DNA of 64,000 nucleotides from Catellatospora sichuanensis (lineage in GTDB: Bacteria; Actinomycetota; Actinomycetes; Mycobacteriales; Micromonosporaceae), in assembly GCF_007483665.1 (NCBI RefSeq), contig NZ_VIQO01000002.1:310001-374000 (forward strand), read 5' to 3'. A model generated the notes under the pieces. It ran no database searches. It saw only the letters and a program-made list of their open reading frames with translations, and had not been told where the DNA came from. Shown one piece after another: positions 14,542 to 38,306 of this stretch. A program made the position numbers and the translations under genes. Within the stretch, counting starts at the first letter, position 1. Every line of letters begins with the position of its first letter.

Positions 14542-15441
14542 GTGGGAGATGCCGTCGCCGCGATCGACTGTGGCACCAACTCGATCCGCCTGCTGATCAC
14601 CGCCGATGGCCGGGATGTCGAGCGCCTGATGCGCATCGTGCGCCTTGGCGCGGGGGTGGACCGCACCGGCCGCCTCGACCCGGCGGCGATCGAGCGCACC
14701 CGGGTCGCGCTGGTGGAATACCGCGCGCTGATCGAGTCGCACGGCGTGAGCCACATCCGTATGGTCGCCACCAGCGCCACCCGCGACGCGGCCAACGCGG
14801 CTGACTTCCACGACATGGTGCGGGTCACGCTGGGGCAGCCCGCCGAGGTCATCACCGGCACCGAGGAGGCAGCGCTCTCCTTCGGCGGCGCCGTGACCGG
14901 GCTGGACGGCAGCGGTCCCTACCTGGTGGTGGACATCGGCGGCGGCTCGACCGAGTTCGTCCGGGGGCGCCGGACGGTGGACAGCTCGATCAGCATGGAC
15001 ATCGGCTGCGTACGCATGACCGAACGCCACCTGCCCGCCGACCCGCCGACGGCCGCGCAGCTCGACGCCGCGGTCGCCGACATCGACGCTGCCGTGTCGC
15101 ACGCCCTGGGGCACGTCGGCACCGCGCCGGCCACCCTGGTCGGGGTGGCGGGCACGGTCACCACGCTGGCCGGCATCGCGCTGGGCCTGGACCACTACGA
15201 CCCCGCTCGGATCCACCACTCGGTGCTGCCAGCCGCGGCGGTCGAGCAGCTCGCCGCGGAGCTGTCCGCGATGGACCACGCCACGCGGGCGGCGATCCCG
15301 GTGATGCACCCGGGCCGGGTGGACGTGATCATCGCGGGCGCGCTGATCCTGCGCGAGATCATGCGGCAGACCGGCTTCAGTGAGATCGTCGTCTCGGAAC
15401 ACGACATCCTCGACGGCATCGCCGCCTCCATCCACCACTGA
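14542..15441 (+). CDS. ppx: Ppx/GppA phosphatase (exopolyphosphatase)
   Basis: Member of the actin-fold Ppx/GppA family, releasing phosphate from polyphosphate or pppGpp. The 299-residue product has the phosphate-binding [14 protein letters not shown] at the N-terminus, [15 protein letters not shown], the second phosphate motif [12 protein letters not shown] and the [12 protein letters not shown] motif. It is a short two-domain form lacking the C-terminal HD domain of E. coli GppA, as in actinobacterial Ppx2-like proteins. GTG at 14542 has no Shine-Dalgarno but follows TAGGGT by six bases. Confidence 0.93.
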
Positions 15442-15474
15442 GCAGTACTTTCCTTGTCGAAGGTAGTGCGCTGC

Positions 15475-15503
15475 TTGTGGTACTGCGCATCGCACACTAC
15501 TGT
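15475..15503 (+). promoter_or_regulatory. padR promoter with overlapping operator-like repeats
   Basis: TTGTGG (15475-15480), 17 bases, TACTGT (15498-15503); GTG starts seven bases later. GTAGTGCG (15463), GTACTGCG (15480) and the inverse CGCACACTAC (15491) surround and fill the promoter, suggesting autoregulation by the PadR product. Confidence 0.55.
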
Positions 15504-15510
15504 GCTCAGC

Positions 15511-15834
15511 GTGGATACCACCCAACTGCTCAAGGGGGTGCTCGACCTGGCCGTGCTCGCCGTGCTGCGCGACGACGACGGCTACGGGTACGACATCCTC
15601 CGCCGGCTGCGCACCGCCGGGCTGACCGAGATCGGTGACGCCTCGGTCTACGGCACCCTGCGCCGGCTGTTCGCGGCCGGCTATCTCACCACCTACGTGG
15701 TGCCCTCCGAGGAGGGCCCGCACCGCAAGTACTACGCGCTCAACCCGGCCGGCCGCACCCAGCTCAAGCAGGGCGGCGATGTCTGGCGCGGGTTCGCCTC
15801 CACCATGAACACCCTGTTGAGGGAGTCGGCATGA
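15511..15834 (+). CDS. PadR family transcriptional regulator
   Basis: A 107-residue winged-helix repressor of the PadR family. Signatures are LLKGVLDLAVLAVL, the recognition region DGYGYDILRRLR, SVYGTLRRLFAAGYL and the wing EEGPHRKYYALNPAGR. GTG at 15511 is chosen because it removes an atypical Cys/Trp-rich extension and follows a -10 box by seven bases. PadR genes are often paired with a HAAS-domain membrane protein, and that is the case here. The stop overlaps the start of a mini-ORF cassette (ATGA at 15831), so it is coupled to the HAAS gene through two cassettes. The inducer is unknown. Confidence 0.9.
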   Translation: MDTTQLLKGVLDLAVLAVLRDDDGYGYDILRRLRTAGLTEIGDASVYGTLRRLFAAGYLTTYVVPSEEGPHRKYYALNPAGRTQLKQGGDVWRGFASTMNTLLRESA

Positions 15835-15902
15835 ACGAGCACCGCGAGCGAATCATGAACGTCGGCGATGCCGCCGGCGAGCGCCGCGAGGAGAGGGCAT
15901 GA
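15831..15902 (+). CDS. Mini-ORF 1 of coupling cassette (23 codons)
   Basis: Begins with ATG overlapping the padR stop (ATGA) and ends with TGA overlapping the next cassette ATG (ATGA). The peptide starts MNEHRERIMNVGDAAGE and ends RREERA. It is charged and has no domain. Its job, if translated, is more likely ribosome relay than the peptide itself; this is inference. Confidence 0.4.
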   Translation: MNEHRERIMNVGDAAGERREERA

Positions 15903-15966
15903 GCGAGCACCGCGAGCGAATCATGAGCTCTGGACATGTCGTCGACGAGCGCAGCGAGGAGAGGGC
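15831..15966 (+). repeat. Tandem 68-bp coupling cassettes between padR and HAAS gene
   Basis: Two units of exactly 68 bp (15831-15898 and 15899-15966). Both begin ATGA(A/G)CGAGCACCGCGAGCGAATCATGA and end CGAGGAGAGGGC before the next ATGA. Each unit carries a strong Shine-Dalgarno (GAGGAGAGGG) at its 3' end. A 62-bp relative lies at 20589. All three sit precisely between a stop and a start codon within operons. Confidence 0.85.
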
Positions 15967-15970
15967 ATGA
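15899..15970 (+). CDS. Mini-ORF 2 of coupling cassette (23 codons)
   Basis: Begins in the stop of mini-ORF 1 and ends in the start of the HAAS gene, both as ATGA. The peptide starts MSEHRERIMSSGHVVDE and ends RSEERA, resembling mini-ORF 1 in its first nine and last four residues and the third cassette (20589) in its middle (SSGHVVDERS against SCGHVLDERS). Confidence 0.4.
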   Translation: MSEHRERIMSSGHVVDERSEERA

Positions 15971-16992
15971 ACGTCGAGATCGCACAGTATGCGGCGCAGG
16001 TCGGCGCGGCCCTGTCCGACCTGCCGGAGCAGGCCCGTAACGACCTGCTGGAGGACCTGCCGGCGCATCTGGCCGAGGTGGCGGCGGAGATCGAGGCCGA
16101 GGGCGGCGGTGCGACGCTGACGGAGCGGCTCGGGCCGCCCAGCGCGTACGCCGCCGAGCTGCGCGCCACGCTGGGCCACACGGGGGGTCCCAGCCGGCCG
16201 GCCGCCTGGGCGGGGCGGGCGGTGTCGCGGGTGCGGGCACGCTGGGGAAGGCTGGACCGCCGGCTCGGTCCGGTCATCGGATACGAGCGTCTCGGCGAGT
16301 TCCTGGCGCTGCTGCGCCCGGCCTGGTGGGTGGTGCGCGGCTGGCTGGTCGCGATGCTGGTGGCGCAGCTGTGGCGCGACGGCGACGGGCTGGGCCTGCT
16401 GCCGCGCTTCGAGGGCAGCACCGTGCTCGGCCTGCTGGTGCTCATCGCCTTCGTGGTCGGCTCGATCTGGCTCGGTCGGCGCACCACGGCGGCCCCGCCG
16501 GCCCGCCGCCGGACTCGGGTGGCGCTGGGCGCGGCGACGGCCGTCGTCGTGGTGTTCGGACTGGGGCTGTGGGTGGCGGCGGATGACCGGCTGATGGGGT
16601 CGTTCTGGCAGGAGTCGACGCCGACGTCCTGGGTGTCCGACCCGTACAACCAGGTCAACGACATCTTCGTGCTGGGTCCGGACGGGCAGATCATCCAGGG
16701 CGCGCGGCTGGTCGACCAGGACGGCAGCCCGGTCGTGCTCGGCTACTGTGCACAGCGTTTCGGCTGGGAGGGCCCCGGCGGGGGCGGCCGGGGCTGGGAG
16801 TGGCGGGTCGTGTACCCGTCCTGTCCCGACCTCAGCGCACCGCAGCTGCCGTGGGTGGCCGTGTCGCCGGCACCCCTGCCCTGGGAAACGCCGTCGCCGT
16901 CCGTCGCGCCGGCACCGTCGCCTTCGCCTTCGGGCGCGGTGTTGCCGTCACCGTCCCCGAGTGCGTCCGCGGGACCGGCTCCCACCCGTTGA
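15967..16992 (+). CDS. HAAS-domain membrane protein, PadR partner
   Basis: A 341-residue membrane protein. The N-terminal 60 residues (IAQYAAQVGAALSDLPEQARNDLLEDLPAHLAEVAAE) match the HAAS signalling helix domain that accompanies PadR regulators. Three transmembrane helices follow (about 122-138, 152-171 and 188-207), then an extracellular region with DDRLMGSFWQES and two cysteines, and a Pro/Ser-rich tail. ATG at 15967 is preferred over the longer frame from 15868, which only reads through the cassette in a third frame. It probably acts in membrane sensing or modulation together with the PadR protein, which is inferred from the pairing. Confidence 0.82.
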   Translation: MNVEIAQYAAQVGAALSDLPEQARNDLLEDLPAHLAEVAAEIEAEGGGATLTERLGPPSAYAAELRATLGHTGGPSRPAAWAGRAVSRVRARWGRLDRRLGPVIGYERLGEFLALLRPAWWVVRGWLVAMLVAQLWRDGDGLGLLPRFEGSTVLGLLVLIAFVVGSIWLGRRTTAAPPARRRTRVALGAATAVVVVFGLGLWVAADDRLMGSFWQESTPTSWVSDPYNQVNDIFVLGPDGQIIQGARLVDQDGSPVVLGYCAQRFGWEGPGGGGRGWEWRVVYPSCPDLSAPQLPWVAVSPAPLPWETPSPSVAPAPSPSPSGAVLPSPSPSASAGPAPTR

Positions 16993-17007: not shown

Positions 17008-17053
17008 CGAGGGGTGAGCGGCTACGGCACAATGGCCGCACCGCCACCCCTCG
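17008..17053 (+). terminator. Inverted repeat after HAAS gene
   Basis: CGAGGGGTG (17008-17016) and CACCCCTCG (17045-17053), a perfect 9-bp pair around a 28-base loop. It may be a terminator of the padR operon or an operator of the next gene; CACAAT in the loop could be a -10 box. Confidence 0.4.
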
Positions 17054-17070
17054 ATCGTGAAGGCCCATTC

Positions 17071-17523
17071 ATGTATGAGCAGCCAGGTCCGCAGGTGCCC
17101 CCCGCTCCCTACGCGGTTCCGGGGCCGCCGCCGCGCAAGACCGGCCGGATCGTCGCTATCGTCGTGGCGGCGGTGCTCCTGCTGTGCTGCTGCGGTGGCG
17201 GTCTTTTCGTGGCACTCAGGCCGGACGCCCTGGGCGGCTTCGCCAAGGACATCGTGGACGCCGTGAACAGCGATGTGGCCAACGCGGAGGTCGGCGACTG
17301 CGTCAACGACTTCGCGAAGGTGGAGGACGCCCGGATCGTCGATTGCGCGTCGACGGACGCGGCCAACAAGGTCGTCGGTGTCGTCGACGACGTGACGGAG
17401 TCGGAGTTCACCGCCAAGGAGCAGGCGCTGTGCAACGCGTTCCCGACGTGGGAGCAGGTCGTCTGGATCGGCAAGAGGGGCGGTAACGGCGACGTGTGGT
17501 GCCTGGCGCCGCACAAGAGCTGA
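17071..17523 (+). CDS. Small single-span membrane protein, paralog 1
   Basis: A 150-residue protein with a Pro-rich cytoplasmic N-terminus (MYEQPGPQVPPAPYAVPGPPP), one transmembrane helix (IVAIVVAAVLLLCCCGGGLFVAL) and an exported domain of about 90 residues with VGDCVNDF, IVDCAS, DAANKVVGV, TWEQVVWIGKRGG and WCL. Four cysteines suggest disulfides. The exported domain is close to 75 percent identical to that of the next gene by eye. It may belong to the LppU/SCO3897-like group, but this is a weak recollection. ATG at 17071 is preferred; a GTG at 17014 is also open. Confidence 0.8.
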   Translation: MYEQPGPQVPPAPYAVPGPPPRKTGRIVAIVVAAVLLLCCCGGGLFVALRPDALGGFAKDIVDAVNSDVANAEVGDCVNDFAKVEDARIVDCASTDAANKVVGVVDDVTESEFTAKEQALCNAFPTWEQVVWIGKRGGNGDVWCLAPHKS

Positions 17524-17744
17524 GCCCGCCGTGGCGCGCCGTTCGCTGAACGGCTGAGGTCGCGGTGCTGACTCGGCGGTCCTTCTTGTCCGTCCGGATG
17601 GCATGCGAAGAGCGCTCACCTGCGGGGTCGCGAAGATTCTCAGCTGACGCTAAGGTGACGCGGTCTCCGTGACCGTACGTGAGACGTAACGCCCCCGCCG
17701 CGACTCGTTCCGGACGAGGGCACCCCTCGGAAGGAAAGAACCAC

Positions 17745-18149
17745 ATGAGCGAGCAGGTAACCCCGGCGGTCCAGGAGACTGCGGAGCCGTCGAAGGCGAA
17801 GTCCGCCGCGGCCAGCGCCGGCAAGAAGATCCTCGGCTACGTCGTCGGCCTCGTGGTCCTCGGCGGTGGCTATCTGGGCTGGCAGTACCTGTCCGGCGAC
17901 CTGGCCATCGCCAAGGTCGGCGACTGCGTCAACGACTTCAAGGTCGTCGACGACGCCAAGGTCGTGGACTGCACCTCCGCCGACGCCGCCAACAAGGTCG
18001 TCGGTGTCATCGACGGCGTTTCGGAGTCGGACTTCACCGCCAAGCAGCAGACGCTGTGCGCGGCGTACCCCACGTGGGAGCAGATCGTGTGGATCGGCAA
18101 GAAGGGCGGCAGCGGCGACAGCTGGTGCCTGGAGCCCATCAAGAAGTGA
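17745..18149 (+). CDS. Small single-span membrane protein, paralog 2
   Basis: A 134-residue tandem paralog of the preceding gene. The N-terminal cytoplasmic part differs completely (Glu/Lys/Ala-rich, no Pro), one helix follows (ILGYVVGLVVLGGGYLGW), and the exported domain repeats VGDCVNDF, VVDCTS, DAANKVVGV, TWEQIVWIGKKGG and WCL with conservative changes. ATG at 17745 has AAGGAAAG upstream. It is followed by a strong terminator. Function is unknown. Confidence 0.82.
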   Translation: MSEQVTPAVQETAEPSKAKSAAASAGKKILGYVVGLVVLGGGYLGWQYLSGDLAIAKVGDCVNDFKVVDDAKVVDCTSADAANKVVGVIDGVSESDFTAKQQTLCAAYPTWEQIVWIGKKGGSGDSWCLEPIKK

Positions 18150-19881: not shown

Positions 19882-20592
19882 ATGGGAGCGTTGCGTCGCT
19901 GGTGGCCGCTGCTGGCCGTGGCCGCGCTGCTGATGCTCGCGGCCGCGACGGCCTCGGTCTCGGTGCTGCCGATCGGCCGGGCCGCGCCGGAGCAGTCCGC
20001 GTCGCCGAACCCCACCCCGACCGCCTCGCCGTCGCCGTCCCCGCGGTCGCCGTCCCCGTCGCCGTCGGCGCCGCCCGAGGACACCGCCGACTCCGGCTGG
20101 CTGGGCGTGGTCGGGCTGGGCATGCTGGCGCTCATCGGGGCGGCCGTGCTGATCGTGCTGCTCAAGGCGGCCGCCAAGTCGACCACGAAGTTCCGCCGCC
20201 GGGCCATCCGGGAGAAGCCGCCGGTACGCCTCGCGCAGCTCACCGACGAGGAGCAGGTCGTCGCGGCGCTGGACGCGGGCCTGTTGGACCTCGACGACGA
20301 CGCCGCCGATCCGCGTACCGCCGTCATCGCCTGCTGGGTGCGCCTGGAGCAGGCCGCCGCGGCGGCGGGCGTGCCGCGCCTGCCCGACGACACCGCCACC
20401 GACCTGGTCGTACGCATGCTCCACCGCCGCCACCTGGACGCCGGGGTGCTCAACGGCTTCGCCGACGTGTACCGCCGCGCCCGCTACGCCACCCACCGCG
20501 TCGACGACGACATGCGCCTGCAGGCCAGGGCCTCCCTGCACCGCCTGCGCGACGAGCTGACCGCCGGCACCCGCAGCGAGGCGACGGCATGA
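19882..20592 (+). CDS. DUF4129 domain membrane protein
   Basis: A 236-residue protein with an N-terminal signal-anchor (WWPLLAVAALLMLAAATASV), an extracellular Ser/Pro-rich linker, a second transmembrane helix (LGVVGLGMLALIGAAVLIVLL) and a cytoplasmic DUF4129 domain (PRTAVIACWVRLEQAAAAAGVPRLPDDTATDLVVRML, then LDAGVLNGFADVYRRARY). DUF4129 proteins sit in moxR-DUF58 clusters, as here. GGAGCGGGGAACA precedes the ATG. The stop overlaps the start of a coupling cassette (ATGA at 20589). Confidence 0.87.
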   Translation: MGALRRWWPLLAVAALLMLAAATASVSVLPIGRAAPEQSASPNPTPTASPSPSPRSPSPSPSAPPEDTADSGWLGVVGLGMLALIGAAVLIVLLKAAAKSTTKFRRRAIREKPPVRLAQLTDEEQVVAALDAGLLDLDDDAADPRTAVIACWVRLEQAAAAAGVPRLPDDTATDLVVRMLHRRHLDAGVLNGFADVYRRARYATHRVDDDMRLQARASLHRLRDELTAGTRSEATA

Positions 20593-20654
20593 GCGGCGTA
20601 CGGATCATGAGCTGCGGACATGTCCTCGACGAGCGCAGCGCGGAGGCGACATGA
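20589..20654 (+). CDS. Mini-ORF coupling cassette 3 (21 codons)
   Basis: A 62-bp relative of the 68-bp cassettes at 15831. ATG overlaps the stop of the DUF4129 gene and TGA overlaps the ATG of the next gene, both as ATGA. The peptide starts MSGVRIMSCGHVLDE and ends RSAEAT. GGAGG sits six bases before the downstream ATG. The downstream gene itself begins MSQHREH, echoing the MSEHRER of the other cassettes. Confidence 0.45.
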   Translation: MSGVRIMSCGHVLDERSAEAT

Positions 20655-38159: not shown

Positions 38160-38291
38160 GTCGCCCGCACAGGGCCGCCCAGGGGTAACGCCCGCACAGG
38201 GCCACCAGGGGTAACGCCCGCACAGGGCCACCAGGGGTAACGCCCGCACAGGGCCACCAGGGGTATCGCCCGCCACAAGGGGCATCAGGGG
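38160..38291. repeat. 26-bp tandem direct repeats
   Basis: Three exact units (38186-38211, 38212-38237, 38238-38263), each beginning TAACGCCCGCACAGG and ending CCACCAGGGG, with a degenerate unit before (38160-38185) and one or two after (38264-38291). They fill the divergent rnz/dioxygenase intergenic region. No spacers are present, so this is not a CRISPR. Confidence 0.9.
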
Positions 38292-38306
38292 TAGGGGGAC
38301 GAGGCG

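Follow-up and report, generated by a model that had tools for sequence, protein, structure and literature searches.

The closest described systems to the repeats reported here are the mycobacterial interspersed repetitive units (MIRUs), a designation that reportedly goes back to Supply et al. (1997). MIRUs are used for typing tuberculosis strains, and we know of no account of how they move or why start codons are chosen. PMC12548453 describes them as apparently mobile, inserting at start codons and carrying an internal open reading frame (ORF) coupled at -4 spacing; according to PMC2734929 the repeats measure 40-100 bp and occupy 41 places in the genome of M. tuberculosis H37Rv. A preliminary description of our locus knew of no named family of this kind, a statement overturned by the start-codon, -4-spaced mobile repeats described in PMC12548453. 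We propose, at a probability of about 0.78, that the units found in Catellatospora sichuanensis are a MIRU-like dispersed element whose insertion at start codons is tolerated through a translational relay.

The window, that is, the whole stretch of DNA analysed, is 64,000 nucleotides long. Between a padR gene and a HAAS gene it holds two tandem 68-bp units (15831-15898 and 15899-15966) that are identical at 57 of 68 positions in this register and 81% identical in an alternative register (TRF score 220). The features are as follows.

15502..15834, + strand: PadR-like regulator gene (Pfam PadR, E 1.9e-18); start uncertain (GTG 15502 or 15511)
15831..15898, + strand: element unit 1, 68 bp, mini-ORF MNEHRERIMNVGDAAGERREERA, stop 15900-15902
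15831..15853, + strand: predicted left quasi-palindrome of unit 1, beginning in the mini-ORF ATGA, imperfect here; register from family covariation
15867..15901, + strand: predicted right quasi-palindrome of unit 1, centre 15884, unit 2 ATG within the outer arm
15888..15898, + strand: right end of unit 1, GAGGAGAGGGC, with the Shine-Dalgarno sequence; AGGAG ends 5 bases before the ATG
15899..15966, + strand: element unit 2, 68 bp, mini-ORF MSEHRERIMSSGHVVDERSEERA, stop 15968-15970
15899..15921, + strand: predicted left quasi-palindrome of unit 2; register from family covariation
15935..15969, + strand: predicted right quasi-palindrome of unit 2, centre 15952 (GCGCAGC), HAAS start codon within the outer arm
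15956..15966, + strand: Shine-Dalgarno-bearing right end of unit 2, GAGGAGAGGGC
15967..16992, + strand: HAAS-domain gene (Pfam HAAS, E 2e-07), start codon in the right-hand ATGA
20589..20650, + strand: 62-bp third unit, lying between two ORFs and with ATGA at each end; mini-ORF MSGVRIMSCGHVLDERSAEAT

The padR stop TGA overlaps the ATG of unit 1. The preliminary description had placed two 68-bp units with ATGA at 15831, 15899 and 15967, which is correct letter for letter; translation bears out its statement that both are complete 23-codon ORFs, and the shared sequence it reported before the next ATG is GAGGAGAGGG, at 15888-15897 and 15956-15965. Its account of the copies in the window holds for the pair but is incomplete, the 62-bp third unit at 20589-20650 having been missed. 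The ORF upstream of that third copy has the C-terminus ...TRSEATA, and its last bases (20571-20592) resemble the right end of the element (weakly, E 7); an older unit may perhaps have become fused here to the C-terminus of the upstream protein. Rfam gave no match at E<=1 in window positions 15400-16400, so a known terminator or attenuator, which the preliminary description had named as a result that would speak against it, was not found there. Elsewhere the window holds a 26-bp tandem repeat in five copies with 93% matches (38162-38293, TRF score 209) and two adjacent ORFs sharing a long similar stretch, VGDCVNDF...ADAANKVVGV...WIGK+GG (17014-18149), apparently a tandem gene duplication judging by their translations.

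The window alone would not prove a family, because a 16-mer has two exact matches in it and 20 of 100 shuffles gave as many matches at the 3-mismatch setting. Across this genome, blastn with the unit pair returned 48 places, and the 15-mer GCGAGCGAATCATGA occurs 39 times with at most one mismatch, against 0 for the backward control. A sequence-only covariance model built from 21 copies (R1) gave 160 matches at E<=1. Contigs C1 and C2, scanned whole (1.12 Mb) to avoid choosing only good copies, yielded 36 units in 25 arrays at E<1e-3 with a broad model; their reversed sequence yielded five hits at E<10, the best at E 0.97. Chance or local duplication as the source of the pair is ruled out by these backward and reversed-sequence controls.

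Beyond this genome, the search of Micromonosporaceae that the preliminary description had suggested did uncover a family. Among 61 genomes, evenly sampled and searched under stricter filters than those behind the 160 matches, 46 held at least one match at E<=0.01, the top counts being 86 (this genome), 79, 70 and 61. A strict two-part pattern found 17 stretches in a named genome collection, all in Catellatospora records of four species. With a model of the right end (R2), 13 chosen genomes were searched, and 9, 9 and 5 places were found in G226, G370 and G189, members of three other families; a lenient ORF search at these 23 places outside Micromonosporaceae found an in-frame NTGA-to-NTGA ORF at 18 (9/9, 7/9 and 2/5), many starting MSERSER. 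A class-wide pattern scan matched 33 of 296 genomes, mostly at 1-3 places, with G370 (11 places) and G045 (six, Micromonosporaceae) standing out besides this genome; single matches in it mean little, since the backward control matches in three genomes. The strict pattern found no element match in viral contigs, nor did one 91-base query in plasmids and phages, and phage or plasmid carriage was set aside for want of a match in these collections with the queries used. Literature searches of open PMC papers turned up nothing relevant on a non-mycobacterial family of such start-codon repeats.

Placement follows start codons. For 19 of the 25 arrays in C1 and C2 the end coincides exactly with a called start on the array's own strand; no array is antisense. 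These contigs offer 2580 intergenic RTGA sites on both strands against 352 RTGA start codons, so array placement is not random among NTGA sites. Of the six remaining arrays, one lies at a GTG whose call is 9 bases off, one is at a start that reads ATGG, one has a unit joined in frame to an ORF of 428 codons, one stands before an uncalled 167-codon ORF, and two run on into another short ORF (12 or 24 codons). The gene caller was a simple one based on codon usage, which rewards Shine-Dalgarno cores and is biased toward starts directly behind the element; orthologous empty sites, described below, support start placement independently of this bias. The preliminary description had spoken of stop-start junctions, and the start half of that claim stands. 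The other half does not, as a 4-base overlap with an upstream stop is present in 11 of the 25 arrays; others begin at starts that lack it, which identifies the start codon as the target. Insertion at start codons with -4 (NTGA) coupling, in the style of MIRUs, is what we find. Two side observations belong here. One search gave two hits at E 0.1-0.2 antisense to called genes, probably by chance; and at C1:416125 of this genome (L118) a unit without a right NTGA lies in frame with a long ORF, 428 codons from the element ATG, whose fusion product begins MSERSERIRRTGHAADGRGEEKA.

The reading frame of the units is kept with similar regularity. From 301 hits we retained 174 distinct units with NTGA within 4 bases of both model ends, after setting aside 42 partial hits, 10 that lacked NTGA, those at the ends of loci, and duplicates. 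In 167 of these 174 the right NTGA supplies the exact stop of the ORF that the left NTGA opens; 165 measure 68, 71, 74, 77 or 80 bp and two measure 104 bp, all 2 mod 3, so unit length changes by threes. The other seven (69, 70, 75, 76 or 79 bp) are out of frame, and coupling is therefore not absolute. A Shine-Dalgarno core precedes the next start in 153 of 163 in-frame units, compared with 488 of 949 gene calls. The earlier picture of an element that sits at start junctions, leaves its neighbours intact and brings its own ribosome-binding core is upheld by these figures, the frame being kept in 167 of 174. Mean column entropy at codon positions 1/2/3 is 0.44/0.59/0.66 on the left and 0.76/1.04/0.83 on the right, with a highly variable middle and no third-position excess in the mini-ORF columns. 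The frame is conserved and the peptide is without visible selection.

Orthologous loci with and without a unit both exist, at the padR-HAAS junction and at three other sites, as the comparison proposed in the preliminary description required. Of 121 family genomes, 81 yielded HAAS orthologs, and the comparison covers 30 of the loci. Within the genus, the padR-HAAS junction holds two units in this genome (G000) and G087, one in G100 and G118, and none in G109, G051, G071 and G016. In G109 the flanks of the empty site are joined and the HAAS ortholog starts at the same ATGAACGTCGAG; in G087 the first unit has shrunk to 26 bp, still 2 mod 3 and with ATGA at both ends. G037, from another genus, carries an array of a different subtype at this junction, and G010, G048 and G068 carry a short unit. 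A 12-kb stretch compared across 11 congeneric genomes adds three presence/absence sites. At C1:289306 only this genome among the 11 has the full 71-bp unit; it is reduced to a remnant of 41 bp in G087, altered in G795 and missing from G109, where the empty site is exact. Complete or damaged units lie at C1:290402 in five genomes and none in six, and at C1:299106 the ten other congeneric genomes have no full unit, their flanks being more diverged; G794, G795 and G016 may retain remnants there. Insertion polymorphism between species of one genus is thus seen at four sites. A different dispersed repeat of about 100-130 bp with inverted ends GATCTTGCGCG / CGCGCAAGATC lies at C1:296912-297040, inside L112, and is the source of most short matches in all the congeneric genomes listed in the 12-kb comparison.

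Start placement, NTGA at both ends, the length rule and a Shine-Dalgarno core of its own fit an element tolerated through relayed translation. We suggest that ribosomes formerly initiating on the gene would now initiate on the mini-ORF, terminate at its TGA and reach the gene either through coupling or through the element's own Shine-Dalgarno sequence; insertion would then cost little and copies would persist, and the palindromic ends could be the structures that place the element at NTGA start codons. Most likely, then, this is a mobile element that persists because insertion at start codons preserves translation. The preliminary description had offered a portable expression module; a selected role of that sort is unsupported, and a tolerated, probably selfish element explains the data at least as well.

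Both ends of the element are imperfect palindromes, the right one by covariation and the left one with a weaker signal. The left end reads NTGA GCGAGCG N AGCGAGC GAA[T/C] and pairs outward from N if G-A pairs are allowed; the right end comprises about 17 pairs centred on GCGNAGC, with the start codon of the gene in its outer arm. These quasi-palindromes are visible only because G-A pairs are allowed around the GCGNAGC centre, whose N is variable (entropy 1.65 left, 1.72 right). The d(GCGNAGC) mini-hairpin, to which d(GCGAAGC) hairpins are related, is a stable DNA motif. Our element has the same GCGNAGC centre and variable N at both ends; that motif is, however, not known from start-codon elements, and the hairpin in our element is predicted from its letters. 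At the left end the first start-codon base covaries with the T/C, 152 of 170 units pairing (Watson-Crick or G-T) against 142.7 expected and with 0 of 2000 shuffles as high, and pairing stops at the start codon (position 12 pairs in 8 of 170, expected 7.1). An alternative left stem, CATGA/TCATG, was rejected, as it fails in other genera and the start base covaries with the T/C in GAA[T/C]C.

At right-end positions 1-17, 859 of 918 cells pair in the 54 units of this genome (shuffled mean 821, 0/500) and 1687 of 1972 in 116 other units (shuffled mean 1504, 0/500). Slid registers score far lower, yet register -3 in units of other genomes also beats all 500 shuffles (1252 vs 1687 of 1972). In a MAFFT alignment of 44 right ends (38 random and six from this genome), covariation counting standard pairs only is 0.135, against 0.067 in shuffles (0/500) and 0.012-0.048 in slid registers; RNAalifold on the first 21 copies gave weak structure only (11 pairs, covariation term -0.32). 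Pairing extends to the fifth base of the gene in 88 of 126 terminal units (59.7 expected, 0/2000). We note that shuffle tests are inflated by the relatedness of the copies, and that nearest-neighbour contrasts are the safer evidence. Among similar units differing in the start base, both pair by way of a changed internal base in 6 of 11 pairs at the right end and 7 of 12 at the left. The corresponding fifth-base signal is weak: in 11 of 30 contrasts the internal bases differ and both units pair, in 15 of the 30 one or both otherwise fail (the flank differing or the internal base being the same), and in six neither pairs.

Covariation with target bases may reflect template-switch correction, guided insertion or selection on an mRNA hairpin. 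Quasipalindrome correction is template switching during replication that copies one arm onto the other, and a purely mutational origin of the arm covariation along these lines, itself compatible with the tolerated-element reading, strikes us as plausible at a little under even odds. If it is correct, arm covariation is uninformative on guiding or RNA function. Consistent with it, covariation extends beyond the element to base five of the gene that received it, and the G795 unit (L354, orthologous to C1:289306) ends in a perfect inverted repeat of 16 bp, looped by GAA, which extends into the target. In that unit the target ATG is now ACG, and the mini-ORF runs on, in frame, into the short ORF behind it; this one case favours template-switch correction. 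It is also the only clear example, and the halt of left-end pairing at the start codon noted above points the other way.

We tentatively raise a further reading, more probably wrong than right, in which start codons are found by base pairing. Guide arms in the two GCGNAGC hairpins would pair with the target NTGA (at the right end also with the gene base that follows it), and guide and target would covary for that reason. Were this so, the element would represent hairpin-guided, probably single-strand insertion without a Pfam-recognisable Y1 transposase, and it would explain the orientation and the start-codon specificity that it has in common with MIRUs.

Unlikely, in our judgement, is that the right hairpin is a selected device that hides the start codon and Shine-Dalgarno sequence in mRNA until the mini-ORF is translated, enforcing obligatory coupling or attenuation. 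The arms do covary with the start codon, which in predicted RNA folds is paired at 2.39 of 3 bases in the 54 units of this genome versus 1.17 in 400 sampled gene starts; the median predicted RNA fold is -13.5 kcal/mol in units of this genome versus -10.4 at other gene starts, and the mean is -14.4 kcal/mol for native units versus -12.5 with arms swapped between them. The right end of window unit 2 folds as RNA at -14.6 kcal/mol (z -3.24), and with DNA parameters at -3.4 (z 0.74). On the other hand, the right end of L264, one of three that were folded, does not beat shuffles, and the stability of the median unit of this genome is equalled or exceeded at 26% of 925 other gene starts. Left ends, that of unit 1 (15831..15853) included, are no better than shuffles under standard energy rules with RNA and DNA parameters. 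Presence of the element varies among congeneric species at the compared sites. The seven out-of-frame units, in which weak hairpins were expected, keep hairpins of -10.4 to -23.9 kcal/mol, which speaks against a hairpin that enforces obligatory coupling.

Mobilisation by a Y1 transposase, as for an element like REP/BIME or IS200/IS605, is very improbable. The likeness to REP/BIME with RAYT and to IS200/IS605 lies in a short non-autonomous repeat with imperfect palindromes at both ends, strand-specific placement in fixed orientation to a tetranucleotide, and guide-like covariation that would suit guide-target pairing. Unlike those systems, our element sits exactly in start codons with a frame-keeping ORF and is not extragenic, and it shows no Y1 link: PF01797 is present in 14 of 61 family genomes, in 3 of 9 with at least 30 element matches versus 11 of 52 others, and no copy of the element lies close to L185, the one Y1 locus that this genome has (best E 2.2). 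REP/RAYT was rejected on these grounds, and comparison of PF01797 with copy number across the 61 family genomes found no mobilising enzyme. Least credible of all is that the mini-ORFs encode a family of small functional proteins, since the recurrent peptide pattern (MSERSERI...DERSEExA) and conserved frame are offset by third codon positions that are not the freest, a highly variable middle and no Pfam match for two window peptides.

Like MIRUs as described in PMC12548453 and PMC2734929, our units are short repeats, dispersed singly and in tandem, that lie at start codons with an internal ORF at -4 spacing and are apparently mobile with little effect of insertion on the gene. Unlike them, the units are 62-80 bp long, mostly with two quasi-palindromes, give 160 model matches in one genome and are far more widespread with distinctive, predicted hairpin-shaped ends; the hosts are non-mycobacterial, and the strict pattern is confined to Catellatospora (Micromonosporaceae). 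In G557, presumed to be a Mycobacterium, one locus (L247), located with what we take to be the MIRU26 primer sequence, holds one 53-bp unit with GTGA ends, a length of 2 mod 3 and an open ORF that is absent from L244-L246; it carries GAGGAG and GAGCGCAGC, the latter a core common to our element. R2 did not pick this unit even at E<=10, only short motifs being common, and at E<=0.1 found nothing in 10 genomes of a genus that is presumably Mycobacterium (g45; M. tuberculosis not among them). By analogy, the element appears to work like a MIRU, the likeness seen here being one of design. Apparently new are its breadth and its two quasi-palindromic, GCGNAGC-centred ends with start codons in covarying outer arms.

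Our data suggest that short "MSERSER..." ORFs annotated in actinomycetes are in many cases remnants of this element and not proteins, and that the same holds for some of the terminal extensions of real proteins. More broadly, finding this design in soil actinomycetes, in many copies, with covarying ends and with sites left empty in sister species, makes the movement of such elements and their choice of start codons testable in harmless species.
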